Shown: positions 39,349-56,495 of the stretch, piece after piece
Layout of the letters: every line of letters begins with the position of its first letter
Position numbering within the stretch: position 1 is the stretch's first letter
Assembly: GCF_003268635.1 (NCBI RefSeq)
Contig: NZ_CP029639.1
Location: 1,685,501-1,749,500 of the forward strand
Origin: Paenibacillus sp. DCT19
GTDB taxonomy: Bacteria; Bacillota; Bacilli; Paenibacillales; Paenibacillaceae
Direction: 5' to 3'
Length of the DNA stretch: 64,000 bases
Translations under genes and position numbers: made by a program
Notes under the pieces: generated by a model
Databases searched by the model: none
What the model was told of the DNA's origin: nothing
Seen by the model: only the letters and a program-made list of their open reading frames with translations

Positions 39349-40464
39349 ATGAATGAACATGTTACGACCAAAGAGACGATTACGATATCAAAAGGTTCTG
39401 CTGAGGTACTGCACATTTATATCCCGTATAACATTGCACATATTGAGCGGATTCGTCGGATCACAGGCAGAACGTGGCAAGCGAAAGAAAAAGTGTGGGT
39501 CATCCCCTACACCACATCAGCTATACAGGAGCTCATGAATCAATTTGATCCAGTAGATGTTCAGATTGCCCCAGAGTTGTGGGTGGAGAGTGAGGATTTA
39601 CAGCAATGGAAAGCTAGCAAAGAGAGCGGTGTATGGAGCAAAGAGCCATTACAGAAGGCATTAACATTACGAGGATACAGTCGCAAAACGATCAAAGCAT
39701 ATTGTAATCAGATCGAACGCTTTCTGAGTAGCTGCCAAATTGAAAGTGCAACCGTGACTACTTCAGTAGTTCAGACGTACTGTTTAGATTTGCTTGAGCG
39801 AGGAATCTCCCATTCCAGTGTAAACCAGACGATCAGCGCGATTCGCTTCTATTGCAAACATGTACTCCATCATCCTACAGAGATCCAGTATATTCGTCCC
39901 AAGAAGCAGACCAAGTTGCCACAAGTATTGTCTGAAAAAGAAGTGGCTCAATTACTCACTTCCGTAACCAATCTCAAGCATAAAACGATTTTGTTTCTCA
40001 CGTATTCGTCTGGTCTTCGTGTAGGTGAAGTCGTTCGTCTACGTTGTAGCGATCTGGATATTGAGCGCCAGACCCTTATTGTAAGGCAGGGAAAAGGTCA
40101 GAAGGATCGAAGAACGTTACTCTCCAATATTGCTTGGGAAATTGTGCAGGAATACATAAGCGAGTATAAACCCCATCGATGGTTGTTTCCGGGACAATCT
40201 CCGGATCGGCATCTGACCGAGCGTAGTGCGCAAAAGGTTTTTGAAGAAGCTAGACAACGCGCAGGCATTGTGAAAAAGGTTAGTATTCATGTCTTACGAC
40301 ACTCTTTCGCCACGCATTTACTGGAAAACGGAACAGACCTGCGCTATATCCAAGAGCTGCTTGGTCACACGAGTGCACGAACAACCCAGCGATATACGCA
40401 TGTGAGTACCAAGAATATTCAGCGTATTCAGAGCCCGCTGGATCGTCTGGATCTGGGAGATTGA
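39349..40464 (+). CDS. Tyrosine recombinase of the cassette array
   Basis: 371 residues. Catalytic residues by the family pattern: R224 (SSGLRVGE), K249 (GKGQKDR), H314 and R317 (HVLRHSF), H340 (LLGHTS) and nucleophile Y349 (TQRYTHV). Residues about 95-180 are a SAM-like core-binding domain. Residues about 10-66 (IYIPYNIAHIERIRRI, TWQAKEKVWVIPY) look like a HARP-type domain, unusual for integrases. The end IQSPLDRLDL resembles the IntI C-terminus. However, between patch II and HxxR there is no IntI-specific insertion of about 35 residues, so it is closer to Xer-like recombinases. It has a strong AAGGAGG site and is codirectional with the cassettes. Confidence 0.92.
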   Translation: MNEHVTTKETITISKGSAEVLHIYIPYNIAHIERIRRITGRTWQAKEKVWVIPYTTSAIQELMNQFDPVDVQIAPELWVESEDLQQWKASKESGVWSKEPLQKALTLRGYSRKTIKAYCNQIERFLSSCQIESATVTTSVVQTYCLDLLERGISHSSVNQTISAIRFYCKHVLHHPTEIQYIRPKKQTKLPQVLSEKEVAQLLTSVTNLKHKTILFLTYSSGLRVGEVVRLRCSDLDIERQTLIVRQGKGQKDRRTLLSNIAWEIVQEYISEYKPHRWLFPGQSPDRHLTERSAQKVFEEARQRAGIVKKVSIHVLRHSFATHLLENGTDLRYIQELLGHTSARTTQRYTHVSTKNIQRIQSPLDRLDLGD

Positions 40465-40500
40465 GTGTTGCTATAAATCTACCTTTTTCGCCAAATTCTT

Positions 40501-40592
40501 CTTCGCAAATACCACTGCTTGGGGTATCATATACGTAGTCAGATATCAGCCAGGACAAGTGGTATTTACGAAGTGCATAAATTAGATGTTAG
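40501..40592 (+). other. Candidate attI-like primary insertion site
   Basis: CTTCGCAAATACCACTGCTT (40501-40520) pairs imperfectly with the segment ending GTGGTATTTACGAAG (40559-40573). Fifteen bases later GTTAG (40588-40592) marks the junction where the first cassette begins. The dyad does not match the attC consensus. It sits between the recombinase stop and the first cassette, where an attI is expected. Confidence 0.6.
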
Positions 40593-41149
40593 CCGAAATT
40601 ATTGCGATAGTAAAAAGAAAGAAGGATTATTATGGGGAAATATGGTGAAGCAGCAGTGAAAGCTGTCAATTATCTTAAAGAACATAAACATGGTGATCCA
40701 ATTAAAGCATGGAATGAAGTGACAATGGAAATATTTGGTGAAGGTAGCTCTTCACAGAAAAAGGGATGCGCGAAAAACACTTTTTTAGGTCTATGCGAAG
40801 CAGGTCTACTTGAAAGCATTCCAAGAGGAGTTTACACAAATTCAAAAAAGAATAAAGCATACGGGCTAAAGGCAGTAAAAATATTAGGTGAGATTGATAA
40901 GGATAAGGATAAGGATATACATCAAAGAGTATTATGGAAAGAAGTAATTGGAGATCAAGACGTTAAGTACAATTCACAAATGGATGTCGTTCTAGGACTA
41001 TGGAAAGAAGGGATGATCAGGCTTTGAGTGGCTAACTCGAAGAAGACAATAACTCCGGCTAACATAATATTCACGCTGCGGACATTCGTCCTTGGTCTGG
41101 CATTCGCCAGACACCCGACATGCGTCGAGTCGTGAATACAGGAACGTTA
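40588..41149 (+). repeat. Cassette 1, identical to 42177-42738
   Basis: Every base from GTTAGCCG to the final AACGTTA matches the copy 1589 bp downstream. Outside the GTTA at each end the flanks differ (TAGAT versus GGAAC on the left, GATG versus TACG on the right). The repeating unit is 558 bp. Confidence 0.95.
40632..41027 (+). CDS. Cassette protein, DUF6979-like
   Basis: 131 residues, soluble and basic. The pattern YGEAAVKAVNYLKE, SSQKKGCAKNTFLGLCEAGL, RGVYTNSKKNKAYGLKAV and NSQMDVVLGLWKEGMI resembles what I recall of DUF6979, a family of unknown function. A short KDKDKD stretch precedes the last third. It has its own ribosome site (AAGAAAGAAGG) 44 bp from the cassette boundary. Confidence 0.75.
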   Translation: MGKYGEAAVKAVNYLKEHKHGDPIKAWNEVTMEIFGEGSSSQKKGCAKNTFLGLCEAGLLESIPRGVYTNSKKNKAYGLKAVKILGEIDKDKDKDIHQRVLWKEVIGDQDVKYNSQMDVVLGLWKEGMIRL

Positions 41150-41150
41150 G
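41057..41150 (+). repeat. attC-like site 1 (short class)
   Basis: R'' GGCTAAC, L'' ATTCACG, inner hairpin GTCTGGC/GCCAGAC and small CGAC/GTCG hairpin, L' CGTGAAT, then GTTAG. 94 bp. Spacers between core and L boxes differ (ATAAT versus ACAGGAAC). Confidence 0.85.
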
Positions 41151-41247
41151 ATGAAATCGGCTAAATCAAATAACAATACTGCTTATAAGTGATCGAAATC
41201 CTGTATTGATTTTCTTTATTAAACTTAGCGAACGGAGAATGATTTCA

Positions 41248-42027
41248 ATGAGTATATACCAGAATAAATTAGTTGCTTTTATTGATATCTTGGGATTTTC
41301 AAACTTAGTAAGTGAGAGTGCGACTAATGTTAATAAAGCACAGATGTTACTAAATTCACTTAAAGATATTGAAGCCTTTATTGCAAAAGAAGAAAACCTC
41401 TATCGAATTTCGGAAAGCGTAGGTAATAATACTGTTTCAAAATTAAAGATAAACTATACCCAATTTTCCGATAGCATTATTTTGAGCACAGATATTGATG
41501 TGCCTGAAATGGAAGGTCGTAAGTTTCATAATATTAACAATTTAATGAATATTTGTATCCTGATTTCCTATTTGCAAGCTAGATTTTTAAACGAAGGGGT
41601 GCTGTTAAGGGGAGGGTTGACGTGGGGGCCGATATTCCATGAAAAGAATATATGCTTTGGACCAGCATTTATTAGAGCATATCGCTTGGAGAGTAATTTT
41701 GCAATTAACCCTAGAATATTAATTGATCCGGATATTACAAGTTTGAAGTTGATACCAGCAGAATATCATGATTATGATCTCTATCCTTACCTAATGGAAA
41801 ATAATTTTAAAGGCCATATATTTTTAAAGGACGAAGTAGACGAAAATTATTTTGTGAATTTTATGTTATTGAAAACCTTCAAGGATAACGCTAGTTCTAT
41901 ACTTAGCAAAATCAATGAAAATATAAGTGGTATGAACGATCAAATTGAAGATGAGAAGAAAGTAATAAACAAACATCAATGGGTAACTACAGAAATAAAT
42001 AAATTTATAGAAAGACATAGTGATTAA
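41248..42027 (+). CDS. Cassette protein, nucleotide cyclase-like
   Basis: 259 residues; start ATG 41248, ten bases after CGGAG. AFIDILGF at residues 10-17 with D13, FSDSIILS with D75, and LLRGGLTWGPIF near 119-130 followed by FGPAFIRAYRLES echo the order of class III cyclase-like domains, with two acidic metal-ligand positions. Similar proteins exist as stand-alone hypotheticals. An immune signalling role (Pycsar-like) is possible but no effector gene lies next to it. The C-terminal 40 residues form a charged helix. Confidence 0.55.
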   Translation: MSIYQNKLVAFIDILGFSNLVSESATNVNKAQMLLNSLKDIEAFIAKEENLYRISESVGNNTVSKLKINYTQFSDSIILSTDIDVPEMEGRKFHNINNLMNICILISYLQARFLNEGVLLRGGLTWGPIFHEKNICFGPAFIRAYRLESNFAINPRILIDPDITSLKLIPAEYHDYDLYPYLMENNFKGHIFLKDEVDENYFVNFMLLKTFKDNASSILSKINENISGMNDQIEDEKKVINKHQWVTTEINKFIERHSD

Positions 42028-42068
42028 GTTCAAAAGAATTTAGAGTTAATTCAGGAAGTTCCGACATC

Positions 42069-42181
42069 ATCTAACATAATATTCACGCTGCGGCTCCGAT
42101 GGAGCCTTGGTCTGTGGGTGGATTTCAAAGAGGGATTTCAGCAGACAACCCCTTCGGGGTTCATGAATACAGGAACGTTAG
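42069..42181 (+). repeat. attC-like site 2 (medium class)
   Basis: TCTAAC..ATTCACG on the left, ATGAAT..AACGTTAG on the right. GGCTCC/GGAGCC and CCCCTTCGGGG hairpins and the CTTGGTCTG..CAGACA pair are inside. 113 bp. Confidence 0.85.
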
Positions 42182-42738
42182 CCGAAATTATTGCGATAGT
42201 AAAAAGAAAGAAGGATTATTATGGGGAAATATGGTGAAGCAGCAGTGAAAGCTGTCAATTATCTTAAAGAACATAAACATGGTGATCCAATTAAAGCATG
42301 GAATGAAGTGACAATGGAAATATTTGGTGAAGGTAGCTCTTCACAGAAAAAGGGATGCGCGAAAAACACTTTTTTAGGTCTATGCGAAGCAGGTCTACTT
42401 GAAAGCATTCCAAGAGGAGTTTACACAAATTCAAAAAAGAATAAAGCATACGGGCTAAAGGCAGTAAAAATATTAGGTGAGATTGATAAGGATAAGGATA
42501 AGGATATACATCAAAGAGTATTATGGAAAGAAGTAATTGGAGATCAAGACGTTAAGTACAATTCACAAATGGATGTCGTTCTAGGACTATGGAAAGAAGG
42601 GATGATCAGGCTTTGAGTGGCTAACTCGAAGAAGACAATAACTCCGGCTAACATAATATTCACGCTGCGGACATTCGTCCTTGGTCTGGCATTCGCCAGA
42701 CACCCGACATGCGTCGAGTCGTGAATACAGGAACGTTA
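42177..42738 (+). repeat. Cassette 3, duplicate of cassette 1
   Basis: Identical to 40588-41149 over its full length, including the coding frame and attC-like site. Separated from it by the cyclase-like cassette. Confidence 0.95.
42221..42616 (+). CDS. Cassette protein, DUF6979-like (second copy)
   Basis: Encodes the same 131 residues as 40632-41027, base for base. The absence of any difference implies a recent duplication or re-insertion. Confidence 0.75.
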   Translation: MGKYGEAAVKAVNYLKEHKHGDPIKAWNEVTMEIFGEGSSSQKKGCAKNTFLGLCEAGLLESIPRGVYTNSKKNKAYGLKAVKILGEIDKDKDKDIHQRVLWKEVIGDQDVKYNSQMDVVLGLWKEGMIRL

Positions 42739-42739
42739 T
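42646..42739 (+). repeat. attC-like site 3 (short class)
   Basis: Identical to site 1 except that the last base reads GTTAT instead of GTTAG, which belongs to the next cassette. Confidence 0.85.
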
Positions 42740-42755
42740 ACGACAGAATCAAATG

Positions 42756-42778
42756 AAAAGAGAGCCGTTTGGCTCTCA
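42756..42778 (-). terminator. Terminator of the reversed cassette gene
   Basis: Minus strand GAGAGCC-AAAC-GGCTCTC followed by TTTTC. It ends the gene at 42776, right at the cassette boundary. Confidence 0.75.
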
Positions 42779-43063
42779 ATTAGAAGTTATATTTAATTCA
42801 TTATGTAATTGAAGAGCATCCTTAAAACCTTGCAAGTAGATTTCACGTTCTAGGATTGTTTGAACTGAAAGGTCTGCATCATCGTAAAGAAATAGAGTTT
42901 TATGCATATCCTGGGGTAGAAGTTCATGTAACTGTTTGAAGTAATGATTTCGATCAGATGAGAATTGATTATAGATAGAGTTGTTTTTGAGAAGATCGCT
43001 ATATAAGGCTTCAATTCGATTACGTATCAACGAATCAAGTAAGACTTCTAAAGAATTGTACAT
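42776..43063 (-). CDS. Cassette protein in reverse orientation, DUF6809-like
   Basis: 95 residues, acidic and helical (MYNSLEVLLDSLIRNRIEALY start, LEREIYLQGFKDALQLHNEL end). The E..YLQGF..AL..HNEL ending recalls DUF6809 of Firmicutes, a family of unknown function. It is the only clear gene of the array on the minus strand, divergent from an XRE regulator in the same cassette, with its own terminator. Confidence 0.65.
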   Translation of the reverse strand: MYNSLEVLLDSLIRNRIEALYSDLLKNNSIYNQFSSDRNHYFKQLHELLPQDMHKTLFLYDDADLSVQTILEREIYLQGFKDALQLHNELNITSN

Positions 43064-43234
43064 AAATGATCACCGTCCGTTATGTTTTATTTTACGAATA
43101 AAAGTTTAACTTATTGAATATTATTTTATCATAACGAAAATTATAGTCAAGACATATCAAAGATATTTTTGATTAAGAAAATATATTTTCATATAATTAA
43201 AGAAAAATTCAAATCCGATACGAAGGGATACCAT

Positions 43235-43438
43235 ATGATAAGTTATAAACCATTTCAAAAATTATTGATCGACAGGGAGATTAAGAAGCAGGATTTATTG
43301 AAAATGACGGGGATTTCATCGGCTACGATGGCAAAGCTCAATACGAATGAATATGTATCGTTAGAAGTCATTGATAAATTATGTACGGCATTGGGATGCC
43401 AGCCTGGAGATCTTTTGGAACATCTAGCAGACCAATGA
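43235..43438 (+). CDS. Cassette XRE-family transcriptional regulator
   Basis: 67 residues, almost entirely one Cro/C1-type helix-turn-helix: LLIDREIKKQDLLKMTGISSATMAKLNTNEYVSLEVIDKLCTALGCQPGDLLE. ATG 43235 follows AAGGGA. The 171-bp AT-rich region between it and the divergent gene should hold both promoters and the operator. Confidence 0.85.
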   Translation: MISYKPFQKLLIDREIKKQDLLKMTGISSATMAKLNTNEYVSLEVIDKLCTALGCQPGDLLEHLADQ

Positions 43439-43488
43439 AAGAATAGAATATAAGAGGATGTTGGTTAACTCGAAGACGTGATTCCGTC

Positions 43489-43608
43489 GTATAACATAAT
43501 ATTCAAGCTGCGGCTCCTTTGGAGCCTTGGTCTGCTGGATGAATTTTGTGGAAGCGTTTCAGCAGACACATCCGACTTCGTCGGACGTCTTGAATACGGG
43601 AACGTTAT
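43489..43608 (+). repeat. attC-like site 4 (medium class)
   Basis: GTATAAC..ATTCAAG on the left and CTTGAAT..AACGTTAT on the right, so the L boxes covary with the changed base. Inner GGCTCC/GGAGCC and TCCGAC/GTCGGA hairpins. Confidence 0.85.
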
Positions 43609-43654
43609 GTGAAATACCCAAGGTCAAGAACATGAAGTAAAGGACGTAAAAACT

Positions 43655-44038
43655 ATGACCATTGATGATTTTGATTACTACACGGACAAAGATTTTGAAT
43701 GGACTGGAATCATAAATTTATATACTCATGCAGAATTTCGAAATAAGAAAGGCACTGTTTTTAGAATAGATTTATTAGTTGCAGATGAAATTGAAGAATC
43801 AGAATTGCTTATTTTAAAGTTTTTAGGACAGTCATGGACATGGGGAGAAGATCGTAGAATAAAAGCTTTCGAACTCTTGGATTTTCAATACATAAATAAA
43901 AGGCTTATTTTTGATTTTAGAACGATTAGAAAGAGCCCAAGATATGATGAGATTAAATACTTCTTGTTTGATTTAGGTGCAGGAATTGAAATCGGAGGAA
44001 ACAAGATTGAAGAAATTCAAGTAAGAGAGCTGAAGTGA
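43655..44038 (+). CDS. Cassette protein of unknown function
   Basis: 127 residues, acidic. No known motif recognised. Predicted beta-rich (GTVFRIDLLVADEIEESELLILKF, KRLIFDFRTI). The single-domain size and acidity would suit an immunity or inhibitor protein, but that is a guess. Confidence 0.65.
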   Translation: MTIDDFDYYTDKDFEWTGIINLYTHAEFRNKKGTVFRIDLLVADEIEESELLILKFLGQSWTWGEDRRIKAFELLDFQYINKRLIFDFRTIRKSPRYDEIKYFLFDLGAGIEIGGNKIEEIQVRELK

Positions 44039-44060
44039 TTATTTTACAGAAGGGTAGATC

Positions 44061-44154
44061 ACATAACATAATATTCACGCTGCGGGCATACGCCCTTGGT
44101 CTGGCAGTCGCCAGACACTCGACATGCGTCGAGTCGTGAATACAGGAACGTTAG
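44061..44154 (+). repeat. attC-like site 5 (short class)
   Basis: ACATAAC..ATTCACG to CGTGAAT..AACGTTAG, 94 bp, near-identical to site 1 (GGGCATACGCCC at the first arm). Confidence 0.85.
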
Positions 44155-44199
44155 ACGAAATCGAAATACCAGAAACCATATATTTAAGAGGGAGAAATC

Positions 44200-44595
44200 A
44201 TGCAACAAGTGGATAGAACCAAAACGCTTGAAGAGCTTGAAGGCGAAAGTTGGGGAGAACCGAGTTTTAATTCGAGATTAGTTATCCGAGTACATGAATT
44301 AAGAAAGCAACCTCTAAATGAATTTAGTCATGAAGATTTAAGGCTGTTGATACTCCAGCAAATTAGCTTGGAATTCCTTTTACCCTTAGCATTCGAGAGG
44401 TTAATAATGAATCCATTAGCATCAGGAGATTTATACATTGGAGATTTATTTTGTTCCGTGCTTCAAGTAGATCAAGAATATTGGGAAGACCATATCGAAT
44501 TAAAAAACGAATTAAATGAAGTGATCAGAATATATAATGAGGCTAGAAAGACAGTAGAAGATCAAATAAGCAAATATAGAAATAATGACATGTAA
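44200..44595 (+). CDS. Cassette CdiI-type contact-dependent inhibition immunity protein
   Basis: 131 residues. The core HEDLRLLILQQISLEFLLPLAFERLIMNPLASGDLYIGDLFCSVL matches the CdiI_3-like immunity family, where DLR..I.Q, LVPLA and NP..GDLY.GDLL are conserved. It would neutralise a toxin delivered by neighbouring cells. No cognate toxin is present, so it would be an orphan immunity gene. GGGAG lies eight bases before the ATG. Confidence 0.8.
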   Translation: MQQVDRTKTLEELEGESWGEPSFNSRLVIRVHELRKQPLNEFSHEDLRLLILQQISLEFLLPLAFERLIMNPLASGDLYIGDLFCSVLQVDQEYWEDHIELKNELNEVIRIYNEARKTVEDQISKYRNNDM

Positions 44596-44620
44596 GTAGA
44601 GTCAAGAAGCCTGGTACATC

Positions 44621-44734
44621 ACATAACATAATATTCAAGAAGCGGCTCCGATGGAGCCTTGGTCTGTAAGGTGGATTTCGAGGAGGCATTTCGGCAGACA
44701 ACCTCTTTGGGGTTCATGAATACAGGAACGTTAG
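44621..44734 (+). repeat. attC-like site 6 (medium class)
   Basis: ACATAAC..ATTCAAG on the left, ATGAAT..AACGTTAG on the right; GGCTCC/GGAGCC hairpin and GGTCTG..CAGACA pair inside. Confidence 0.85.
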
Positions 44735-44775
44735 ATGAAATTCCGAATAATCATCTGTTTAGGGAGGAATCAGTG

Positions 44776-45312
44776 ATGATAAAAATGTTAAAAGAACAAA
44801 ATAACCAATTGAATTATTGGGAAGTCTGGTATGACGAGGATTCAAAAGAATATAATATTCACTTTGGATTACTAGGAGACATCGGAAACCATCAAATAGA
44901 AGAGAAGAAAAAAGGAATCAATGTACCTAAATATATGGATCAGCTTGCTAAAGGGAAATTAGAAGAAGGATATATGTATCTTGAAGACGGTTTACTACAA
45001 GAATTAATGATTCAATATAAAACAGAAGAAAATAAAATAGTAGAAGAAGAATTAGAAAAACGTCATTTTGTTGAATCATTAATGAATGAGTGTCTAGGAT
45101 GGACTGGAAATGGTCACTGTGATGGAGGAGATTATGGAAGTGGTACAATGAATATTTTTTGTTATGTAATCAATTCAAAAATTGCAATAGAAACAATAAT
45201 CAATGAATTGAGAAAAAATGACTTGCTTGATAATTGCACTTTAGCAATCTCAAATGGAGAAGATTATATTTCATATTATCCAACTCAAGGTGAAAAAGTA
45301 GGAATATTCTAA
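44776..45312 (+). CDS. Cassette protein with WGR-like start
   Basis: 178 residues; ATG 44776 is about ten bases after AGGGAGG. Residues 12-45 (YWEVWYDEDSKEYNIHFGLLGDIGNHQIEEKK) resemble a WGR strand pattern. The C-terminal part has CLGWTGNGHCDGGDYGSGTMNIFCYV. Function unknown. The open frame extends upstream into site 6 but without a ribosome site. Confidence 0.65.
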   Translation: MIKMLKEQNNQLNYWEVWYDEDSKEYNIHFGLLGDIGNHQIEEKKKGINVPKYMDQLAKGKLEEGYMYLEDGLLQELMIQYKTEENKIVEEELEKRHFVESLMNECLGWTGNGHCDGGDYGSGTMNIFCYVINSKIAIETIINELRKNDLLDNCTLAISNGEDYISYYPTQGEKVGIF

Positions 45313-45326
45313 GAAGTCGGAACTTC

Positions 45327-45494
45327 ATCTAACATTATATCCACGCATCGGAGCCTGGCAGCTCCTCGGTCCGCCCGAAAGAGAATGACAGGGAAGTGGA
45401 TTCAGGCGGACACATCTGCACCGACTAACCGCATCGCGGCTGGCTCCTGTCGGAGCCTTAAGTCGGTGAGACCTCGTGGATACAGGAACGTTAT
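45327..45494 (+). repeat. attC-like site 7 (long class)
   Basis: ATCTAAC..ATCCACG pairs with CGTGGAT..AACGTTAT, a compensatory change from ATTCACG/CGTGAAT. The long interior contains ACCGACTAACCG..TTAAGTCGGT and GGCTCC/GGAGCC hairpins. Confidence 0.85.
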
Positions 45495-45672
45495 AAGACA
45501 TAATTGCAAATCGTTTAAAGAAGTTTTGTGTTAGTATTTCGATGGAACAAATAGATAACGGCGTAGTGAATATGTAATACGGAGAAGTCGGAGTGAATTT
45601 AAGGAATATCATCTATAAGTCCCCGACTTGAAGCATGTACTCTAATAAATTATATATAAGTGAGGCGAGAAC

Positions 45673-46167: not shown

Positions 46168-46225
46168 TTCCTCTATGTGTTAGTAGCTGATATGGAGAAA
46201 ACATTTCGAAGATGGCAATTACATC

Positions 46226-46383
46226 ATATAACAACATGTTCCCACTGCGGAAACTACGGAGCTTTGGTCTGCGAGGAGAGTTTTCAGGAAGACGAATCAG
46301 CAGACACACCTACATCGACTAACTGCGTCGCGACCACCCTTTGGGCTTAAGTCGGTAAGGCGTCGGGAACATAACAACGTTAG
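46226..46383 (+). repeat. attC-like site 8 (long class)
   Basis: ATATAAC..GTTCCCA pairs with GGGAAC..AACGTTAG. GGTCTG..CAGACA and a TCGACTAACTGCGTCGCG..CTTAAGTCGG interior are shared with sites 7, 9 and 10. Confidence 0.8.
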
Positions 46384-46935: not shown

Positions 46936-47123
46936 ACCTAACACCATATTCACGCTTGGGCAGACAAGCCGCCTCGGTCCGGATCGGAGTTAGAAGTAGA
47001 TTCGAAGATGCAATTGGCAGTAGCGAGGAAGTGAATTCAGCTGGACACACCCGCACCACCCAACCGCGTCGCGGCCAGTCGCTACGCTCCTTTAGGGGGG
47101 CGACGTGAATACAAGTACGTTAG
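46936..47123 (+). repeat. attC-like site 9 (long class)
   Basis: ACCTAAC..ATTCACG to CGTGAAT..TACGTTAG, 188 bp, the longest site. Contains CAACCGCGTCGCGG and an inner ACACCC..GGGGGG region. Confidence 0.8.
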
Positions 47124-47966: not shown

Positions 47967-48127
47967 TTATAACAACATATCACTTATGGGGTCATTCGGC
48001 CCTTATTTCGCCCAAGGGATTTCAGAGAAAGTGGGGTTCAGACGAACAACACTGCGAACCTAACCGCGTCGCTGTTGGCAGCTGAAGCTACCTTAAGGTT
48101 CTCGGACTCGTGAATACAGAACGTTAT
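47967..48127 (+). repeat. attC-like site 10 (long class)
   Basis: TTATAAC..ATCACTTATGGGG on the left, CTCGTGAATACAGAACGTTAT on the right (the usual ACAGGAAC is one G short). AACCTAACCGCGTCGC..CTTAAGGTT interior. Confidence 0.75.
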
Positions 48128-48898: not shown

Positions 48899-49040
48899 AC
48901 CTAACACGTTGTTCATGTTGTGGACTTTCGTCCCTTGGTTGTGAGGTGTATAATAATGGAAGATAATCAGACAACAAACGCCCCAGCCCAAGATAAGAGC
49001 CATCTAAGGCTGGGGCGTTTCATGAATACAGGAACGTTAG
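48899..49040 (+). repeat. attC-like site 11 with very strong inner hairpin
   Basis: ACCTAAC..GTTCATG to CATGAAT..AACGTTAG. The inner AACGCCCCAGCC/GGCTGGGGCGTT arms enclose AAGATAAGAGCCATCTAAG. A stray GATAACATG (48871-48879) just upstream may be an older left core. Confidence 0.8.
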
Positions 49041-49108
49041 CAGAAATCATGGGAATGCCTAATTATTATAAAGATTAGATAAACTATTATCTAAGGGTGG
49101 GGATTTCG

Positions 49109-49669
49109 ATGAGTAGCTTGTTACTAACTTCGTGTGGTTTTAATACTGAAGATATTAAGAATCAATTTCTGAGTTTTATTGAAAGAGATATTTCTCAATT
49201 AAAGGTATCTATTATTACAACAGCATCCCCTATGAAAGAAAATAATAGATATGCACAAAGGGCGGTGCAGGACTTCAAAGGCATGGGGTTTCAGCATATT
49301 GATTTTGTAGATATAGAATTTGATGGCCCGCAACTTCTCATACATAGCGATGTTATATATATCAATGGTGGAAATCCATTTACATTATTGTATTACGCTA
49401 AGAAAAGTGGTGCTGGAACGTTATTACTGGGGCCGAATATTAATATTGTCGATTTCTTTACTCCACAGATGAACACAATGGATTTAACAGATTTTAAGGC
49501 ATTAGGTGTAACCGACAAGCTTATTTTTCCTCACTATGATCGAGAGGACAAATTTAAAGATAATACTAATAAAACAATAGAAGAGAGAATAGTAGCATTT
49601 GAATTCAATGAGAACTGTAAGGTGACAAGACTTAAAGATGAAGAATATATCTCAATCTTAATGGACTAA
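49109..49669 (+). CDS. Peptidase S51-like protein lacking the nucleophile segment
   Basis: 186 residues related to dipeptidase E-like S51 peptidases: LLLTSCGFNTEDIKNQFLSF, ITTASPMKENNRYA, VIYINGGNPFTLLYY, then FTPQMNTMDLTDFKALGVTDKLIFPHYDRED. Between YYAKKSGA and GTLLLGPNIN the family normally has about 22 more residues with the GxSAG serine nucleophile. Here the frame stays open but the segment is gone, so the protein is probably catalytically dead. Start ATG 49109 after AAGGGTGGGG. Confidence 0.75.
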   Translation: MSSLLLTSCGFNTEDIKNQFLSFIERDISQLKVSIITTASPMKENNRYAQRAVQDFKGMGFQHIDFVDIEFDGPQLLIHSDVIYINGGNPFTLLYYAKKSGAGTLLLGPNINIVDFFTPQMNTMDLTDFKALGVTDKLIFPHYDREDKFKDNTNKTIEERIVAFEFNENCKVTRLKDEEYISILMD

Positions 49670-49691
49670 GCACATTTTAGGAGGAGTCTAC

Positions 49692-50456
49692 ATGATATTA
49701 GAAAAAGTAATAAATAGAATTGAAATACAAAGTGAATATAAGGATTTGGTTGATAAGTATATAGATCATGTACGTACCGAACTCAAAGGTGAAATTCATA
49801 GCATTTATATGTGCGGCTCGATTCCCAAAGGAACTGCTACACCTTTTAAGTCAGATGCAGACTTTACGATTGTATGTGAAAATCCCAAAGATATCGATTA
49901 CGAAAGATTGTCGAATATTAAAGATAGGCTTTTGGAAGAATATCCATTCGTAACTAAGATTGATACGATAATTTGCTCAATAGACGATGTATTAAATAAA
50001 CCGAATGAGTGGGGTTTCTGGGTTAAGATTATTTGTGTTTGTATACATGGGGATGACATTGGTGAAAAAGTACCCCCGATCATTATTTCTCCAGAATTCA
50101 TTTTAGACTTAAATACAGAGACTAAGGAGGAAGTAGATCGTATACATCGTTCACTTTCTAATACTAGTGATAACGCATTAAAAACCAGATATATTAAAGG
50201 TTACTCTAAGAGATTAATTCGTGCATTATACTCTTTGGTTATAGTAGATACAGGTGTATGGCAAGATGACATGCTTAAGATGAAGAATGCCATAGTAGAC
50301 TATTGTGATATTGACTCCGCTCTAGTTGATTATCTGTATGCTTGTTACTTGGATTGTAGTAGTGTGCTTGTTGAAGAGTTCCTGGAAATTGCAGATGAAG
50401 TATATAGCTATTTTGAGAATGCCTTAAAGGCAATGGCTGCTTCCAGAAAACCCTAG
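49692..50456 (+). CDS. Nucleotidyltransferase-fold protein
   Basis: 254 residues. The NTase motif is complete: CGSIPKGTATPFKSDADFTIV (GS, then DxD), with a further acidic residue in TKIDTIICS. The C-terminal half is helical. This fold includes aminoglycoside adenylyltransferases and minimal NTases; the substrate is unknown. It sits 22 bp after the S51-like gene in the same cassette. Ribosome site AGGAGGAG. Confidence 0.8.
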   Translation: MILEKVINRIEIQSEYKDLVDKYIDHVRTELKGEIHSIYMCGSIPKGTATPFKSDADFTIVCENPKDIDYERLSNIKDRLLEEYPFVTKIDTIICSIDDVLNKPNEWGFWVKIICVCIHGDDIGEKVPPIIISPEFILDLNTETKEEVDRIHRSLSNTSDNALKTRYIKGYSKRLIRALYSLVIVDTGVWQDDMLKMKNAIVDYCDIDSALVDYLYACYLDCSSVLVEEFLEIADEVYSYFENALKAMAASRKP

Positions 50457-50629
50457 AGTAAAACATATTATTCTATCTTGCAACGAGTACTTGGATATAC
50501 CTCTTCAAGATCAGGAGTAATCGAGTGTTGACGAGGCACCGGTATGCTGGTGGATCTGTTACGAGATGGGAATAGAAGTGCGAGAAGATCTTATTTATTG
50601 AGGGCTTGGTTACAAAGCCGGGGGACATC

Positions 50630-50655
50630 GTGTAACATTATATCCATGTTTCGAG
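50630..50655 (+). repeat. Half attC-like site 12
   Basis: GTGTAACATTATATCCATG is a left core plus L'' box (compare site 7 TCTAACATTATATCCACG), but no right half follows. It marks a decayed boundary between two cassettes. Confidence 0.55.
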
Positions 50656-50685
50656 TAAACTTAATAATACTTTAGGGGGTTAATG

Positions 50686-51090
50686 ATGGGAGCATGGGGA
50701 ACTGGAATTTTTGAAAACGATGATGTATTAGATTGGAAGGCAGATTTACTTGATTCTGATGACATTGAATTAATTGAAGAAACGATTGAAGAAGTTTTAG
50801 AAGAAGAATATATTGAGTCAGATGTAGCTTCCAATGCTCTAGGCGCAATCGAAATCCTTGCAGCTTTACAAGGCAAACCTGGCCAAGAGATATTAAATAG
50901 TCAAAGTAATACTGAAGATCTATATGAATGGATCGATGCACATAAAGGTAAAGGGAAAAATCTCATTTCCAAAGCTAAACGAGCAATGAAAAAAATTAAG
51001 AAGGACTCAGAACTACAAGAGTTATGGGAAGAATCAGGAGAATATTCGAGCTGGTTGAATACACTAAATGACCTAGAAAGTCGATTGTAA
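50686..51090 (+). CDS. Cassette protein, DUF4259
   Basis: 134 residues. The start MGAWGTGIFENDDVLDWKADLL is the hallmark of DUF4259 proteins; YSSWLNTLNDLESRL matches their end. Function unknown. ATG 50686 preferred over 50683 because of spacing from TAGGGGG. Confidence 0.85.
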   Translation: MGAWGTGIFENDDVLDWKADLLDSDDIELIEETIEEVLEEEYIESDVASNALGAIEILAALQGKPGQEILNSQSNTEDLYEWIDAHKGKGKNLISKAKRAMKKIKKDSELQELWEESGEYSSWLNTLNDLESRL

Positions 51091-51123
51091 AGAAATTTAT
51101 TGCTTTCCGAGAAGGAGAGCCTT

Positions 51124-51199
51124 ACATAACAAAATATTCACGATGTGTGCATGCGCCATTAGTCCGGCATACGTTGGGGTGTGAATACAGGAACGTTAG
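51124..51199 (+). repeat. attC-like site 13 (shortest)
   Basis: ACATAAC..ATTCACG to TGTGAAT..AACGTTAG in 76 bp, with only a small inner hairpin region. Confidence 0.85.
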
Positions 51200-51237
51200 G
51201 CGAAACTTCTTGAATTAATAATATTTTGGAGGAATAC

Positions 51238-51720
51238 ATGAGGATTTCTAAAATTGAAACTAGTAATCGTCAAAGAGAAGGTTATCCTGGACTTATTAAT
51301 TACGCTGATATAATTATTGATGGTAAATCTTTATTTGAGATGATTGCACATAAATATGATTTTGTGTCTTGTATAGGATGGGGCAGCATTGAATTCCAAG
51401 AACAGCAGATTGCTCGATTACTTTTAAGAGTTGATTCCGATCTACCCAATAATCGAAATTCCATTTATATTTGTCCTGCGTGCGCTGATTTAGGCTGTGG
51501 GGCTATAACTGTGGAAATTGAAATAAATGATGATACAGTTATTTGGTCTAAGTTCGGGACACAAAATAATTTGAATGATGGTATAGAAGAAGATACAGAT
51601 AATGTGCATTATTTTGAGGAAATAGAAAAGTACATATTTAATAAAAGTGAGTATGAAGATGTAATAATGAATTCAAGAGGATCTGGGATGATTAGGTGGC
51701 CATGGGACACAGAAGAATGA
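51238..51720 (+). CDS. Cassette protein with CPxCxDxGCG motif
   Basis: 160 residues. YICPACADLGCGAITVEIEI near residue 80 suggests a metal-binding or disulfide knuckle; SCIGWGSIEFQEQQIARLLL precedes it. Proteins with this layout occur as hypotheticals in Bacilli and Actinobacteria. Function unknown. ATG 51238 follows GGAGG by four bases. Confidence 0.65.
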   Translation: MRISKIETSNRQREGYPGLINYADIIIDGKSLFEMIAHKYDFVSCIGWGSIEFQEQQIARLLLRVDSDLPNNRNSIYICPACADLGCGAITVEIEINDDTVIWSKFGTQNNLNDGIEEDTDNVHYFEEIEKYIFNKSEYEDVIMNSRGSGMIRWPWDTEE

Positions 51721-51744
51721 TTATATTCGAGGAAAACCATCATC

Positions 51745-51830
51745 GCTAAACAATATATTCACGTTACGGAAATGGCTCGGCGTCCGCCTAACATCCATGA
51801 CACGTTAGGTGGTGAATAAAGGAACGTTAT
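51745..51830 (+). repeat. attC-like site 14 with nested mini-palindrome
   Basis: GCTAAAC..ATTCACG to GGTGAAT..AACGTTAT. Inside, CCTAAC-ATCCATGACAC-GTTAGG (51787-51809) is itself a perfect pair of core-like ends. Confidence 0.75.
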
Positions 51831-51847
51831 AAAAAGGAGAAGCCTAA

Positions 51848-52594
51848 ATGAAGATTGCAATCCTAACTGATATTCATGGTAATTATCCTGCATTAAGTGC
51901 CGTATTCTCTGATATTGATTCTCGTGGGGACATCGAACATACATATTGTCTGGGTGATATGATTGGCATTGGCCCTAACTCTAACGAAGTGCTTGAAGAG
52001 ATAATGTATCGAAAGGATGTAACGGCGGTTTCAGGTAATCATGAAGAGGCAGTTTTGAAACTACTGCAAGGTGATGATACCTTACCGGGTCATGAAATGA
52101 TCGCTGAACATCATAAGTGGATCGGCAAACAGCTAAAAAAAGAAAATATCAAGTTTATAGAAAATCTCCCTCAGACATTAGAAGTTGAAATAGAAGGGCA
52201 AAAAATATTAATAACGCATTACCATATGAAGAAAGGAGAAAGAGAAATAATAGATGAAACCCCTTCGGGACTGAAATTAGACGCAAAATATGAAGGTTCA
52301 CCTTATAGTCTCGTTTGTTTTGGTCATCATCATCCGATCCATTACTTCAAGACAACTCAAAGGGTTTATTTGAATCCCGGAGCATTAGGTTGTAATGAAC
52401 ATGCGATTGCAAGATACGCGGTAGTAGAACTCCAAAAAGGAACAATAAGTGTTCAACTTATAGGAACCACATATGATAATAAAGCATTTTTAGAGTCTTT
52501 TGAGCAGTTAAACGTTCCAGACAGAGAGTTTATATTAAAAGCTTTTCATGGAAACCAACTAGAGAGAGATTTCAAAGATGGTAACAACATCTGA
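51848..52594 (+). CDS. Cassette metallophosphoesterase (YfcE/MJ0936-like)
   Basis: 248 residues. Metal-binding motifs are ILTDIHGNYPAL (DxH), CLGDMIGIGPN (GD), SGNHEEAV (GNHE), ITHYHM and CFGHHHPIHY (GHxH), all present. It belongs to the calcineurin-like phosphodiesterases. The substrate is unknown. AAAAGGAGA lies nine bases before the ATG. Confidence 0.88.
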   Translation: MKIAILTDIHGNYPALSAVFSDIDSRGDIEHTYCLGDMIGIGPNSNEVLEEIMYRKDVTAVSGNHEEAVLKLLQGDDTLPGHEMIAEHHKWIGKQLKKENIKFIENLPQTLEVEIEGQKILITHYHMKKGEREIIDETPSGLKLDAKYEGSPYSLVCFGHHHPIHYFKTTQRVYLNPGALGCNEHAIARYAVVELQKGTISVQLIGTTYDNKAFLESFEQLNVPDREFILKAFHGNQLERDFKDGNNI

Positions 52595-52690
52595 TAACAC
52601 AACATTCACGTTGCGGGTCTTCGCCCTCGCTCTGGTCTTCGCCAGACTGGCAGCTTAATCTAAATAGTCACAGTGGTGAAGGAAACAGTT
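52590..52690 (+). repeat. Degenerate attC-like site 15
   Basis: TGATAAC..ATTCACGTTGCGG on the left is normal, but the right half is GTGGTGAAGGAAACAGTTAA. GTCTGG/CCAGAC hairpin retained. Confidence 0.6.
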
Positions 52691-52774
52691 AAATATTATC
52701 GAAGTATATGTATATACACAGATTATTTTGAAAGTGAGGTAATAGATTATGCGTAAGCGTCCGATCTGCTCCGT

Positions 52775-52880
52775 GCAAAGTCTTGATCTATAAACAACGG
52801 CGGTTGTTTGTATGGAGCTAGCATTTATTTCACCGCCTTCATATTCGTTTTGCGTTTGTTGTTTATAGAATAGACTTTGC
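52775..52880. other. Long inverted repeat before the CD3324-like gene
   Basis: GCAAAGTCT..CTATAAACAAC (52775-52797) pairs with GTTGTTTATAG..AGACTTTGC (52858-52880). GGCGG/CCGCC pairing is possible inside. It is not an attC by sequence; it may be a regulator site or small mobile repeat. Confidence 0.6.
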
Positions 52881-52918
52881 GACCTTAATTTAAATTAAAT
52901 TTAAGGAGCAGAGCTATT

Positions 52919-53185
52919 ATGAAATATGTAAACGCCGATATGATTTTCCCGAAGGAACTATTAAAGGAAATACAAAAATATACACACAGTAGCATGGTAT
53001 ACATCCCAACACCTGATGGACAACGAAAAAAGTGGGGGGAAAACTCGGGAAGTCGCAAGTATTTGAGCCAAAGAAACGAAACAATACGTCAACAATATAC
53101 GGATGGTTCATCGATAGATGAGCTATCTGATCAGTTCGGTCTTTCTAACGATAGTATTAAAAAGATTATTTATACAAAAATATAA
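52919..53185 (+). CDS. CD3324-family small protein
   Basis: 88 residues: MKYVNADMIFPKELLKEIQKYTH, YIPTPDGQRKKWGENSGSRKYL, then a helix-turn-helix-like SSIDELSDQFGLSNDSIKKIIY. The layout is that of the CD3324 family, related to Mor-type DNA-binding proteins. Probably a small transcription regulator. Followed by a strong terminator. Confidence 0.8.
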   Translation: MKYVNADMIFPKELLKEIQKYTHSSMVYIPTPDGQRKKWGENSGSRKYLSQRNETIRQQYTDGSSIDELSDQFGLSNDSIKKIIYTKI

Positions 53186-53192
53186 GTTATAG

Positions 53193-53228
53193 AAATCACA
53201 TCAGCGATCTTATGATGTGATTTTTTTA
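53193..53228 (+). terminator. Rho-independent terminator
   Basis: AAATCACATCA-GCGATCTTA-TGATGTGATTT with seven T. Confidence 0.9.
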
Positions 53229-53367
53229 GTGTAATAAATGATTTGAATTATTTTATATATATTTTTTCAAGGTTTACACCGCTAAAATGGAAAATACCAG
53301 CATTCCTTATTGAACTGGTAGCTAAATGATACATAGAATTCCAGATGACAAAGAAAGGTGTCTTGAT

Positions 53368-54171
53368 ATGAATACCCAAGCATTATTAGATAAAATCGTT
53401 GCACTTTTTAGAGAAGAGCTTAAAGGGAACTTGATAGGTATTTATTTGCATGGTTCACTAGCCATGGGGGGCTTTAATCCCACAAAAAGTGATATTGATT
53501 TTTTAGTTGTTGTAAGAGAAAAGCTTACACCAGTAAATAACTCCAGAATTGCAAAAATAGCTTTATCTTTGCATGATGAAATGTCTGTGATGTTTAATGA
53601 GCGTGGAATAGAATTTACCATTATCTTAGAAATGTATTTAAAACCGTTTGTCTATCCTACACCTTTTGAATTCCATTATTCCGATTATCATAGGGAAAAA
53701 TATCGTACAGATGAGAACTATCTTTGCGGGGGATTGGAAGATAAGGATTTGGCTTCTCAACTTGTTGTTGCCTATGAGCGAGGAAGAACGCTGTATGGAA
53801 AACCATTAAGTGAACTTTATGAACCGATTAATAGTCAATATTACCTCGATTCCATATTAAACGATGTGGAAGGATGTGCTAATGAGATCATTGACAATCC
53901 TCCTACGAACCTTACTTCTATGTACCTAACCTTAAATTTTTGTCGAGTTCTCTATTACGTAACAGAAGGTAAGATATCTTCAAAGCGAGAGGGTGGAGAG
54001 TGGGGAATAACATATCTACCTCAACACTTTCAGCCCTTGGTTTATCTAGCTATATACACGGACGAATCATCCGACAGAGAGAACGACAATAGCAATTTTG
54101 ATTTACAAAGTTTATTAGCATTTGTTGAATATATGACAAACGAAATAAAGCAAAATATATCTAATCATTAA
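53368..54171 (+). CDS. Aminoglycoside adenylyltransferase-like enzyme (AadA/ANT(9) family)
   Basis: 267 residues; ATG 53368, nine bases after AAGAAAGG. The NTase motif is GIYLHGSLAMGGFNPTKSDIDFLVVV, with the helical DUF4111-type C-terminal domain (LTLNFCRVLYYVTEGKISSKREGGEWG). Members transfer AMP to streptomycin or spectinomycin. Spacing and the KREGGEW motif fit, so resistance is plausible but not proven. It shares a cassette interval with the CD3324-like gene, sites 15 to 17. Confidence 0.85.
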   Translation: MNTQALLDKIVALFREELKGNLIGIYLHGSLAMGGFNPTKSDIDFLVVVREKLTPVNNSRIAKIALSLHDEMSVMFNERGIEFTIILEMYLKPFVYPTPFEFHYSDYHREKYRTDENYLCGGLEDKDLASQLVVAYERGRTLYGKPLSELYEPINSQYYLDSILNDVEGCANEIIDNPPTNLTSMYLTLNFCRVLYYVTEGKISSKREGGEWGITYLPQHFQPLVYLAIYTDESSDRENDNSNFDLQSLLAFVEYMTNEIKQNISNH

Positions 54172-54179
54172 GCGACATC

Positions 54180-54287
54180 TTATAACGGGACATTCATACG
54201 GCGGCGCTCGTCTTAGTCTGTAGAAGGATGTCAGAGAAGCATTTTAGCAGACAACCCCTTTGCGGTTCTTGAATTCAGGAACGTTAC
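54180..54287 (+). repeat. attC-like site 17
   Basis: TTATAAC..ATTCATACGGCGG to TTGAATTCAGGAACGTTAC. GTCTG..CAGACA and CCCCTTTGCGG inside. The L boxes pair less well. Confidence 0.75.
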
Positions 54288-54317
54288 CTGAAATCACGAG
54301 AGAAAGGAACAAACGTT

Positions 54318-55313
54318 ATGGAAAAGCACATTAAAGAGCTGTTTACCCAGAAAGTCCTTAATGAAGCAGCTCAAAAGTTCAATATTAATCAATCCAGTCT
54401 TAAAGATTTAGAAGGATTCCAGAACTTTGTTTATTTTGGGAAATCAGATGATAGAAGTGTCGTCCTCCGAGTAACACACCAATCACATCGAACTGAAGAA
54501 GAAATTTTATCCGAAATTGAATTTATGAATTATTTATTGAATAACAGTGTATCTGTTTCGAAAGCCTTACCTTCTATTCATGGGAAATTGGTTGAGAGAA
54601 TAAGTGATGGAGAATTTTATGCAACTTCTTTTGAGTTTTCTAGTGGGAGAAATGCTAGAATCGCCGAAGAAAGCAATGTGTTCTATCAAAGAGTTGGTAG
54701 TTATACAGGCAGAACACATAACCTTTCCAAGCAGTTGAATTTAACAAAGGAATTAAAAAGGAGACAATGGTATAACAAAGAGTTACTTATCAATATGAAA
54801 GAGCATTTACCTGCCGAACTATCTTATGTAATTGACAAATATGACATTCTAAAAAAAGAGCTCAGTAATCTGCCAAAGAATACGGATTCGTACGGTATTA
54901 TCCATGAAGATTTAAATCATGGGAACTATCTGAACGTAGACGATGATGTAGTGCTGATTGATTTTGACGAAGCCGAATACAGTTGGTTTGTTAGTGATAT
55001 TGCTATTCCGTTATTCTACGAGATTCCGATCCCTTGGGTCGTAGATGGACAACGAAGGATAGAGATAGCTAAGAGGTATTATTACAATTTCATGGATGGG
55101 TATGTAAAAGAAAATACAATGGATAATGCATGGTTAAAACGAATATCTGAGTTTATTAATCTTAGACAGTTTGGAGTAGTGTCAGCGATTTATAGGAGTT
55201 ATAATTTCGATAATTATAACAACTGGAGTGATTGGGACAAAGAAGCATTGAAATTTTATTTGAATAATATCGAGCATGATATTCCTTATATTGATATGGA
55301 TTTTTGTAGGTAG
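54318..55313 (+). CDS. Phosphotransferase (APH-like) enzyme
   Basis: 331 residues of the APH/choline kinase fold. A nucleotide-binding N-lobe (FGKSDDRSVVLRVTHQSHR) is followed by the catalytic loop GIIHEDLNHGNYLN and metal-binding VLIDFDEAEYSWFVSDIA. Substrate class uncertain (aminoglycoside, macrolide or homoserine/choline type). A fragment of its close relative is at 57680-57802. AAAGGA precedes the ATG. Confidence 0.82.
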   Translation: MEKHIKELFTQKVLNEAAQKFNINQSSLKDLEGFQNFVYFGKSDDRSVVLRVTHQSHRTEEEILSEIEFMNYLLNNSVSVSKALPSIHGKLVERISDGEFYATSFEFSSGRNARIAEESNVFYQRVGSYTGRTHNLSKQLNLTKELKRRQWYNKELLINMKEHLPAELSYVIDKYDILKKELSNLPKNTDSYGIIHEDLNHGNYLNVDDDVVLIDFDEAEYSWFVSDIAIPLFYEIPIPWVVDGQRRIEIAKRYYYNFMDGYVKENTMDNAWLKRISEFINLRQFGVVSAIYRSYNFDNYNNWSDWDKEALKFYLNNIEHDIPYIDMDFCR

Positions 55314-55332
55314 TGCAGCGCAATGCGGCATA

Positions 55333-55475
55333 TCCTAACATTATATTCACGCTTTGGGCTTACTCCTATGGTCGTCCAGATGTATAATTATAGGAGATAA
55401 CTCGGACGGTACGCGAGCCGACCTAAGATAAGAGCTATCTAAGGTCGGCTCGCGTCGTGAATACAGGAACGTTAT
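55333..55475 (+). repeat. attC-like site 18 with strong inner hairpin
   Basis: TCCTAAC..ATTCACG to CGTGAAT..AACGTTAT. The inner GCGAGCCGACC/GGTCGGCTCGC arms carry TAAGATAAGAGCTATCTAA, the same cap as site 11. Confidence 0.85.
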
Positions 55476-55557
55476 GTAAAAATAACGAAAGTTCAACCTG
55501 AAAAGATTGTTGAAATTATTGTGATCTTTTTAAACTAATAATTTTGAGGTGAGAGAC

Positions 55558-55881
55558 ATGAAGTACTTTTATGGGGTGTTAACACTGTTAGGAATAACAT
55601 TGCCCTACATGGAGTTTATTCCTTGGATTAGTGAGCACGGATTTAATATGACAATATTATTAAATGAAGCAACACAGAATCGAATTAGTGCATTTGCTTG
55701 GTTGGATGTAATAATTGCAGCAATTGTTTTGATTGGATTCATTTTATATGAAGGAAAGCGAATTGGCATAAAGCATAAGTGGATTCCGATCATTGGAACA
55801 TTAACAGTTGGGGTTTCATTTGGATTGCCATTATTTTTATTATTGCGTGAAATTCGAATGGATAAACTGAAAGAAAAGTAA
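55558..55881 (+). CDS. DUF2834 membrane protein
   Basis: 107 residues with three membrane segments (4-22, 48-66 and 78-98). The pattern YGVLTLLGITLPYMEFIPW and FAWLDVIIAAIVLIGFI is that of DUF2834. Function unknown. TTGAGGTGAGA precedes the ATG. Last cassette with an intact upstream site. Confidence 0.8.
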   Translation: MKYFYGVLTLLGITLPYMEFIPWISEHGFNMTILLNEATQNRISAFAWLDVIIAAIVLIGFILYEGKRIGIKHKWIPIIGTLTVGVSFGLPLFLLLREIRMDKLKEK

Positions 55882-55949
55882 ACTTAAATAGATATTCAGG
55901 TAACGAATTTAGTTGAAATCCCTCTAACAAAGTAATGGAGGTGTATAGA

Positions 55950-56438
55950 ATGAAAAAACTAATTGTAGTAAACGGAAGTATGGGCATAGGCAAGACAAGT
56001 ACTTGTAAATATCTTTACAAATCTTTAGATCGATCTGTATGGTTAGACGGAGATTGGTGTTGGATGATGAATCCCTGGACGGTAAACAAAGATACAATAG
56101 AAATGGTTGAGAACAATATTACCTATTTACTTAATAGTTATTTGGAAAATCCTTTATTTAATTATGTTATATTCAGTTGGGTTCTCCATAGGGAAGACAT
56201 TTTAAATGATTTACTTGAAAGGTTACATACTTCGGAGTACAAGCTATACAAGATAACTTTAACCTGTTCTGAGGAATCATTGAGAGATCGAATGCATTCC
56301 GACATGAGAAGCTTAGAACAAATAAATAATAGTATTAATAGATTACAGTTATATCAAAGGATGCAGTCAAATAAGATTGATACAAGCGATCTTGGAATTG
56401 AAGAGACGGTTGAAAAGATTATAAGAATAATAAGTTAA
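55950..56438 (+). CDS. P-loop nucleotide kinase-like protein
   Basis: 162 residues. Walker A GSMGIGKTS at residues 9-17; WLDGDWCWMMNPW, then TCSEESLRDRMHSD like the lid of AAA_33-type kinases. Substrate unknown; related chloramphenicol or shikimate-like kinases share the layout. ATG 55950, ten bases after GGAGG. Confidence 0.75.
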   Translation: MKKLIVVNGSMGIGKTSTCKYLYKSLDRSVWLDGDWCWMMNPWTVNKDTIEMVENNITYLLNSYLENPLFNYVIFSWVLHREDILNDLLERLHTSEYKLYKITLTCSEESLRDRMHSDMRSLEQINNSINRLQLYQRMQSNKIDTSDLGIEETVEKIIRIIS

Positions 56439-56475
56439 TTTTGAAATATAGCTGCCAAGAAAAAATGTGAAATAT

Positions 56476-56495
56476 ATCTAACATAATAATCAATC
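56476..56495 (+). repeat. Half attC-like site 19
   Basis: ATCTAACATAATAATCAATC matches the left core and spacer of complete sites, but no right half follows. Confidence 0.45.

Follow-up and report, generated by a model that had tools for sequence, protein, structure and literature searches.

The locus considered here raises the question of whether a Firmicute can collect gene cassettes in the manner of an integron by means of a recombinase other than IntI. The window, a stretch of 64,000 nucleotides (nt) from Paenibacillus sp. DCT19 (1685501-1749500 of a single 6.67-Mb contig), had been described in an initial annotation as holding a tyrosine recombinase gene followed by at least 15 units of an open reading frame (ORF) plus a palindrome. 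Comparison of the sequences reveals a recombinase gene with an adjacent attI-like site, followed by a row of cassettes that each terminate in an attC-like site (Table 1); behind the ORF at 39349-40464, 15 sites lie on the plus strand, 14 found by scan and one by eye. With a probability of about 0.8, we take this to be a chromosomal cassette-capture system which functions like an integron and recombines folded attC sites without the I2 insert of the integron integrases.

The sites share the layout R''-5 nt-L''-variable hairpins-L'-8 nt-R'; the point of exchange lies within GTTA. A strict scan for TAAC-5nt-L''...L'-7 to 9 nt-GTTA, in which the L boxes could differ by no more than one mismatch, gave 12 plus-strand sites at 41060-55474 and, in the rest of the 64 kb, one plus-strand and two minus-strand hits that look like chance; a wider scan gave 14 on the plus and one on the minus strand. 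One mononucleotide shuffle each of 28 sequences, scanned on both strands, produced three hits in total. The L-box pairs named earlier (ATTCACG/CGTGAAT, ATTCAAG/CTTGAAT, ATCCACG/CGTGGAT and GTTCCC/GGGAAC) were all recovered by the strict scan. A site-model search of the own genome (E<=0.01) placed 21 of 21 hits in two clusters (12 and 9) and none dispersed; the stretch 38000-62000 matched no Rfam family at the gathering threshold. Sites on the plus strand are recognisable up to 55474, and the array end given earlier, 56482, takes in a decayed half site; further decayed half sites were seen by eye near 50631 and 52591.

A unit that had once existed as a circle should begin with bases (GTTA...) complementary to its own R'' box, and this expectation held. 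In 25 arrays (those with fewer than three sites were dropped), complementarity of at least 8 nt was found in 56% of 168 own pairs and in 5.4% of 1631 other pairs; pairs were formed from consecutive recognised sites, so that missed sites depress the own-pair score. At 20 loci from other Paenibacillaceae the values were 63.4% of 131 own versus 6.3% of 1447 other pairs, and 17 of these loci have at least two sites, with none in 674,622 shuffled bases. Outside the Paenibacillaceae, 19 of 35 own versus 15 of 172 other pairs reached this length, although in Fusibacter just 2 of 7 own pairs did so.

The strict scan presupposes complementary L boxes, and covariation was therefore tested on the inner hairpins. 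In 35 distinct sites of 88 nt, 95.7, 93.1 and 96.7% of the cells of the three inner hairpins were paired, above the maxima of 200 shuffles (92.1, 91.0 and 90.2%). RNAalifold predicted 20 pairs for 48 chosen sites, six of them with double changes. The attC architecture proposed for the palindromes is thus borne out by the scans and by both pairing analyses. For 71 of 94 sites folded in circular form, the bottom strand gave the more stable structure; the mean advantage was 1.5 kcal/mol. These results also bear on the view that the recombinase moves the cassettes by ordinary double-stranded sites, as Cre or Xer enzymes do, the hairpins being secondary. The missing I2 insert, the XerA-like core and an attI that is a plain double-stranded site would all fit this. 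However, the complementarity between R'' and the cassette start exists only in the folded site, and neither inner-hairpin covariation nor a bottom-strand bias is needed by a double-stranded one; we hold this explanation to be unlikely.

The recombinase is not IntI. Its ORF matches PF00589 (E 7.8e-43) and scores 216.2 bits against NF040815 (the XerA/'integron integrase' model, cut-off 220) and 202.9 bits, split over two stretches, against TIGR02249 (IntI, cut-off 265); it also falls under the XerC and XerD cut-offs. NF040815 is the top NCBIfam model for the recombinase family, with two relatives passing (P0034, 220.3; P0109, 237.8) and one failing (P0099, 214), and the TIGR02249 cut-off was missed by all four family proteins scanned. 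The closest named recombinases belong to the Paenibacillus amylolyticus group. The I2 insert of the integron definition is absent, about 40 residues fewer being present: the interval at its position spans 49-52 residues in every one of the 68 family rows of the alignment (57 of 82 loci kept, those with fewer than 300 aligned residues or with stops dropped), compared with 90-91 in 15 of 15 IntI rows and 53-57 in three Xer rows. The pairwise alignment with IntI4 gives two blocks, between which IntI4 has 57 residues and the recombinase 15.

A classical integron, its IntI misjudged or its I2 recently lost, would account for attC-like sites that resemble classical ones and for IntI4 (2a3v) as the best Foldseek match of the core structure model (E 5e-17); by Z-score, XerA is the best match, with 22.6 versus 19.4 for IntI4. 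The uniform lack of the insert in the family and its presence in every IntI row, the TIGR02249 scores and the core tree stand against this. In the tree (76 of 88 rows kept, 12 near-duplicates dropped), 58 family rows group together (97/95), as do 13 IntI rows in a clade of their own (100/100). Such a misjudged or recently altered integron is quite unlikely. An old loss of I2 is possible, since the branching order of the family, IntI and two integrases associated with IS91 is not settled. Relatives of the recombinase that consist of the core only stand directly before IS91-family transposases on alphaproteobacterial plasmids (L239, L240).

The N-terminal 88 residues are modelled confidently (predicted local distance difference test, 86.9), and the domain weakly resembles binders of branched DNA: its top fold matches are the SMARCAL1 HARP, XPB and UvsW domains, each weak alone. 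A sub-threshold match to Pfam HARP (PF07443) was obtained in 19 of 44 relatives, the best relative shown reaching 20.7 bits at a cut-off of 25. This HARP-like domain may be the part that reads the folded attC.

The conserved site beside the recombinase is a putative attI. Behind the stop codon, 20 of 26 loci have a version ending in CATAAAT-TAGAT-GTTA (with small changes) and 5 of 26 one ending in CGTAAAT-AAGAC-GTTA, so that 25 of 26 loci have one of the two; beyond GTTA the sequence differs between loci, and 15 of 25 loci share the same chromosomal neighbour upstream. All 20 loci examined contain TTCGCA-17-TATCAT within the site, and a promoter there may drive expression of the first cassettes. 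A second attI-like site, with no recombinase adjoining, lies at 2.62 Mb of the same genome. Its match stops at GTTA in 14 further genomes, and 10 loci read there gave 10 different first cassettes. Genome G001 has two family recombinase genes 37 kb apart (L043, L044), with an attI-like site at each.

The cassettes appear to be mobile and to be exchanged between genomes as well as between the two attachment sites of the own genome. The 562-nt DUF6979 cassette exists in three identical copies, two in the window (cassettes 1 and 3) and one at the head of the second array. In a set of 192 cassettes, alignments covering 85% or more of the shorter member were obtained for 81 pairs, some of them at 99% end to end across species, and one cassette is 99.4% identical over 1616 of 1617 nt between genomes with clearly different recombinases. 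Compared with three near genomes, 6 of 14 window cassettes have a counterpart, two of them within the own genome only. Those conserved in genome G034 are the distal three and those near attI differ, as would be expected if new cassettes enter at attI. The array has a G+C content of 36.1%, compared with 46.6% upstream. Its cargo, as had been stated, is diverse and unrelated: of the first 20 array-region proteins scanned, 8 had no Pfam match at E<=0.01 or belong to unrelated families. The PADLOC matches among 10 cassette proteins were all weak, and we therefore claim no defence role.

The initial annotation placed the system in Paenibacillus-like bacteria, a confinement that the wider search does not sustain. 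The recombinase is matched at 1e-30 in 56 of 75 genomes of the genus, many copies being broken or partial, and at 1e-60 in 67 of 197 Paenibacillaceae genomes (12 of 19 genera). The attC-like sites occur in 74 of the 75 and 129 of the 197 genomes (16 of 19 genera); in a phylum-wide set just 2 of 299 genomes have them, both of the window genus. Within the family sample, sites are present in 67 of 67 recombinase-positive versus 62 of 130 other genomes (p 1e-16), a negative genome being one with no match at 1e-60 (1e-30 in the genus), which counts broken and partial copies as negative. Among the best 80 of 551 recombinase relatives, 56 loci lie outside the family, and 16 of these have a strict downstream site, with 27 sites on the recombinase strand, 2 on the opposite strand, 1 upstream and 0 in shuffles. 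They include Fusibacter, Flavobacterium, Nitrospirota, Nitrospinota and Spirochaetota, and three archaeal contigs have single sites each; most of the contigs are metagenome bins, which makes the hosts unsure. A strict downstream site is missing at 40 of the 56 loci, many of them on short contigs, and Bacteroidota are positive in 1 of 21 cases. Two plasmid arrays found no support in the scan and were rejected, one from Rufibacter (L238) with three site-like hits on each strand and one from Chryseobacterium (L237) with two on each; a TAACATTG-type repeat is present six times on the Rufibacter plasmid. TIGR02249 at 1e-40 matched 0 of 200 Bacilli genomes, which shows little as control genomes were equally without a match, and a plasmid search with IntI1 returned near-identical IntI1 only among the 60 matches listed.

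Several observations weigh against a folded-site system run by this recombinase. Recombination by the linked enzyme is something we infer from comparison, no excision, circle or integration having been observed. The top strand folds equally well or better in 23 of the 94 sites, and the site model R1 missed the site at 46939 and the two weakest sites. Upstream of the recombinase no LexA-like box was better than in shuffles, one box form having been tried. The window protein itself gave no match to PF07443 at E<=1, and the fold matches of the N-terminal domain are weak, with the unrelated CASTOR1 and eIF1 at a similar Z-score; these two matches and one to GATOR2 were put aside as common folds. 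Genome G034 is without the unit 51195-51829. At its junction stands a hybrid of two sites in place of a clean GTTA join, which points to homologous recombination between the sites, and a search of this genome for a clean excision footprint found none. Dispersed repeats without the recombinase had been named in advance as speaking against the system, and this applies in part, as 18 of 19 recombinase-negative genomes of the genus retain sites (1 to 21 hits). In our reading these are CALIN-type orphan arrays (clusters of attC sites lacking integron integrases), because sites are fewer without the recombinase (median 8 versus 17.5) and because recombinase and sites are associated across the family. 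In the genus, such arrays would have lost their recombinase or would be served by one from elsewhere.

The hybrid site and the orphan arrays would also be expected if homologous recombination between similar repeats, or the host XerCD, had moved the cassettes and the linked recombinase were not responsible. We give this little credit: shared cassettes end exactly at GTTA amid different neighbours, insertion appears to take place beside conserved attI-like sites, and the recombinase is associated with the sites family-wide and linked to them in other phyla. That palindromic intergenic repeats (repetitive extragenic palindromes or terminators) stand beside a recombinase by chance fits hairpins between genes, but has a next to negligible probability in view of the own-box complementarity, the attI, the cassette exchange, the recombinase association and the lack of dispersed copies.

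In the integron-like system that we favour, the recombinase would excise and insert cassettes as circles; its substrates would be double-stranded attI and attC folded from the bottom strand, and replication would complete the junction, as in integrons. The I2 of IntI docks extrahelical bases, and as the present enzyme is without it, another mode of recognition is proposed with less confidence: the R and L stems, which are long and perfect, would serve to recognise the folded sites, perhaps together with the N-terminal HARP-like domain. In the R and L boxes (alignment A1) no extrahelical base was seen, and an asymmetric 5/8-nt spacer and an unpaired CTGC are present. The spacing of R and L in these sites differs from that of classical attC.

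With the IntI integrons (class 1, Vibrio and other chromosomal ones) the window shares the recombinase gene with adjacent attI, cassettes mostly on the same strand, R''-L''-L'-R' sites with a GTT exchange point and a better folding bottom strand, orphan clusters and an older distal end. It differs by the lack of I2 and the N-terminal HARP-like domain, by an array that follows the recombinase gene at its 3' end, by an L'-R' spacer of mostly 8 nt with no extrahelical base seen in the boxes, and by R complementarity extending to 9-10 nt; nor was a LexA-like box found. XerA, XerC and XerD have a similar catalytic core without I2, whereas the window recombinase has an extra N-terminal domain, a linked attI and a cassette array. 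SMARCAL1, XPB and UvsW, whose N-terminal domains weakly resemble that of the recombinase, are helicases, and the similarity alone is not significant.

Table 1. Positions of the recombinase gene, attachment sites and cassettes in the window
Feature	Position	Strand	Basis or remark
Tyrosine recombinase, 371 amino acids, XerA/IntI-like core without I2	39349..40464	+	ORF, PF00589, NF040815/TIGR02249, alignment, tree
N-terminal HARP-like domain (residues ~10-66)	39376..39546	+	
attI-like site: inverted repeat, L box CATAAAT (40576-40582), 5-nt spacer, GTTA (40588-40591)	40500..40591	+	conserved across loci
Putative promoter-like element within attI, directed into array	40502..40530	+	
Cassette 1 (DUF6979 ORF 40632-41027)	40588..41149	+	Pfam; 562 nt
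attC-like site 1	41060..41149	+	strict scan, wider scan, site model
attC-like site 2	42072..42180	+	strict scan, wider scan, site model
Cassette 3, repeat copy of cassette 1	42177..42738	+	
attC-like site 3	42649..42738	+	strict scan, wider scan, site model
attC-like site 4 (ATTCAAG/CTTGAAT)	43492..43607	+	strict scan, wider scan, site model
Cassette 5	43604..44153	+	95.5%, 550/550 nt, to first cassette of second locus in genome G035
attC-like site 5	44064..44153	+	strict scan, wider scan, site model
attC-like site 6	44624..44733	+	strict scan, wider scan, site model
attC-like site 7 (ATCCACG/CGTGGAT)	45330..45493	+	strict scan, wider scan, site model
attC-like site 8 (GTTCCC/GGGAAC)	46229..46382	+	strict scan, wider scan, site model
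attC-like site 9	46939..47122	+	strict scan, wider scan; missed by site model
attC-like site 10, degenerate	47968..48127	+	by eye; missed by both scans and site model
attC-like site 11	48902..49039	+	strict scan, wider scan, site model
Distal, older array part	49036..55474	+	three units kept in genome G034 at 93.5-95.3%
attC-like site 12	51127..51198	+	strict scan, wider scan, site model
attC-like site 13	51747..51829	+	wider scan; missed by site model
attC-like site 14	54183..54286	+	wider scan, site model
attC-like site 15, final recognisable one	55336..55474	+	strict scan, wider scan, site model
Decayed half site 3' of array	56478..56490	+	by eye

Some further observations concern the cargo and the surroundings of the array. 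One cassette (42776-43438) holds a DUF6809-like ORF (below cut-off, minus strand) divergent from a Cro/C1-type helix-turn-helix ORF (plus strand), and this cassette may therefore bring its own promoters. Adjoining ORFs at 53326-55313 resemble an AadA-type nucleotidyltransferase and an APH-type phosphotransferase. A relic of the 3' end of the APH-like gene lies at 57681-57802, and near it the last site is present once more in G034; from the relic, the far end of the array seems to decay by deletion. The second array (L102, 8700-16600) includes Fic-family and SUKH-like ORFs. Outside the array, a short repetitive ORF with a long Ser-Ala repeat (36750-36900) stands upstream of a conserved radical-SAM gene.

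With its attI-like and attC-like sites, unit boundaries, exchange across species and lack of I2, the locus answers to the integron-like array with a non-IntI recombinase that had been proposed for a Firmicute. Under the classical definition it is not an integron, because I2 is absent; by its mode of working it most likely is one. We found no description of this system among the papers listed in searches of an open-access PMC library, subscription journals and preprints lying outside the scope of the search. In the parts available of PMC7790495 and PMC4792948, I2 is presented as the innovation that enabled integron integrases to use folded single-stranded attC. According to the available text of the latter, folded single-stranded DNA of CTXphi is recombined by the I2-less XerCD of the host (PMC4792948). 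We take this as a precedent for I2 not being chemically essential. CTXphi thus resembles the window system in combining an I2-less tyrosine recombinase with a folded single-stranded site, presumed in our case, and differs in borrowing host enzymes and in having no cassette array of its own. As far as the consulted part of PMC9668308 goes, archaeal IntI carry the IntI-specific domain, which IntegronFinder demands, and the window recombinase would therefore be missed. For Firmicutes, the accessible part of PMC9024848 gives, with IntegronFinder 2.0, a single complete integron, that of Limnochorda pilosa, besides a small number of orphan clusters.

We lean towards the view that the locus belongs to a second, I2-free class of integrons, defined by the fusion of a HARP-like domain with an Xer/IntI-type core and found across Bacillota, Bacteroidota, Nitrospirota, Spirochaetota and perhaps archaea. 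Recombination of folded attC would then not need I2, and part of the integrase-less attC clusters in integron-poor phyla would belong here, their integrase having been missed as search programs demand an I2 profile. The claim of I2 as an innovation becomes directly testable with a natural cassette system that has attC-like sites and lacks I2, and such a system would represent an ancestral stage or else a solution reached independently. Integrons would moreover be widespread in Gram-positive bacteria, and for these hosts there would be a new source of cassettes as well as a gene-shuffling tool.

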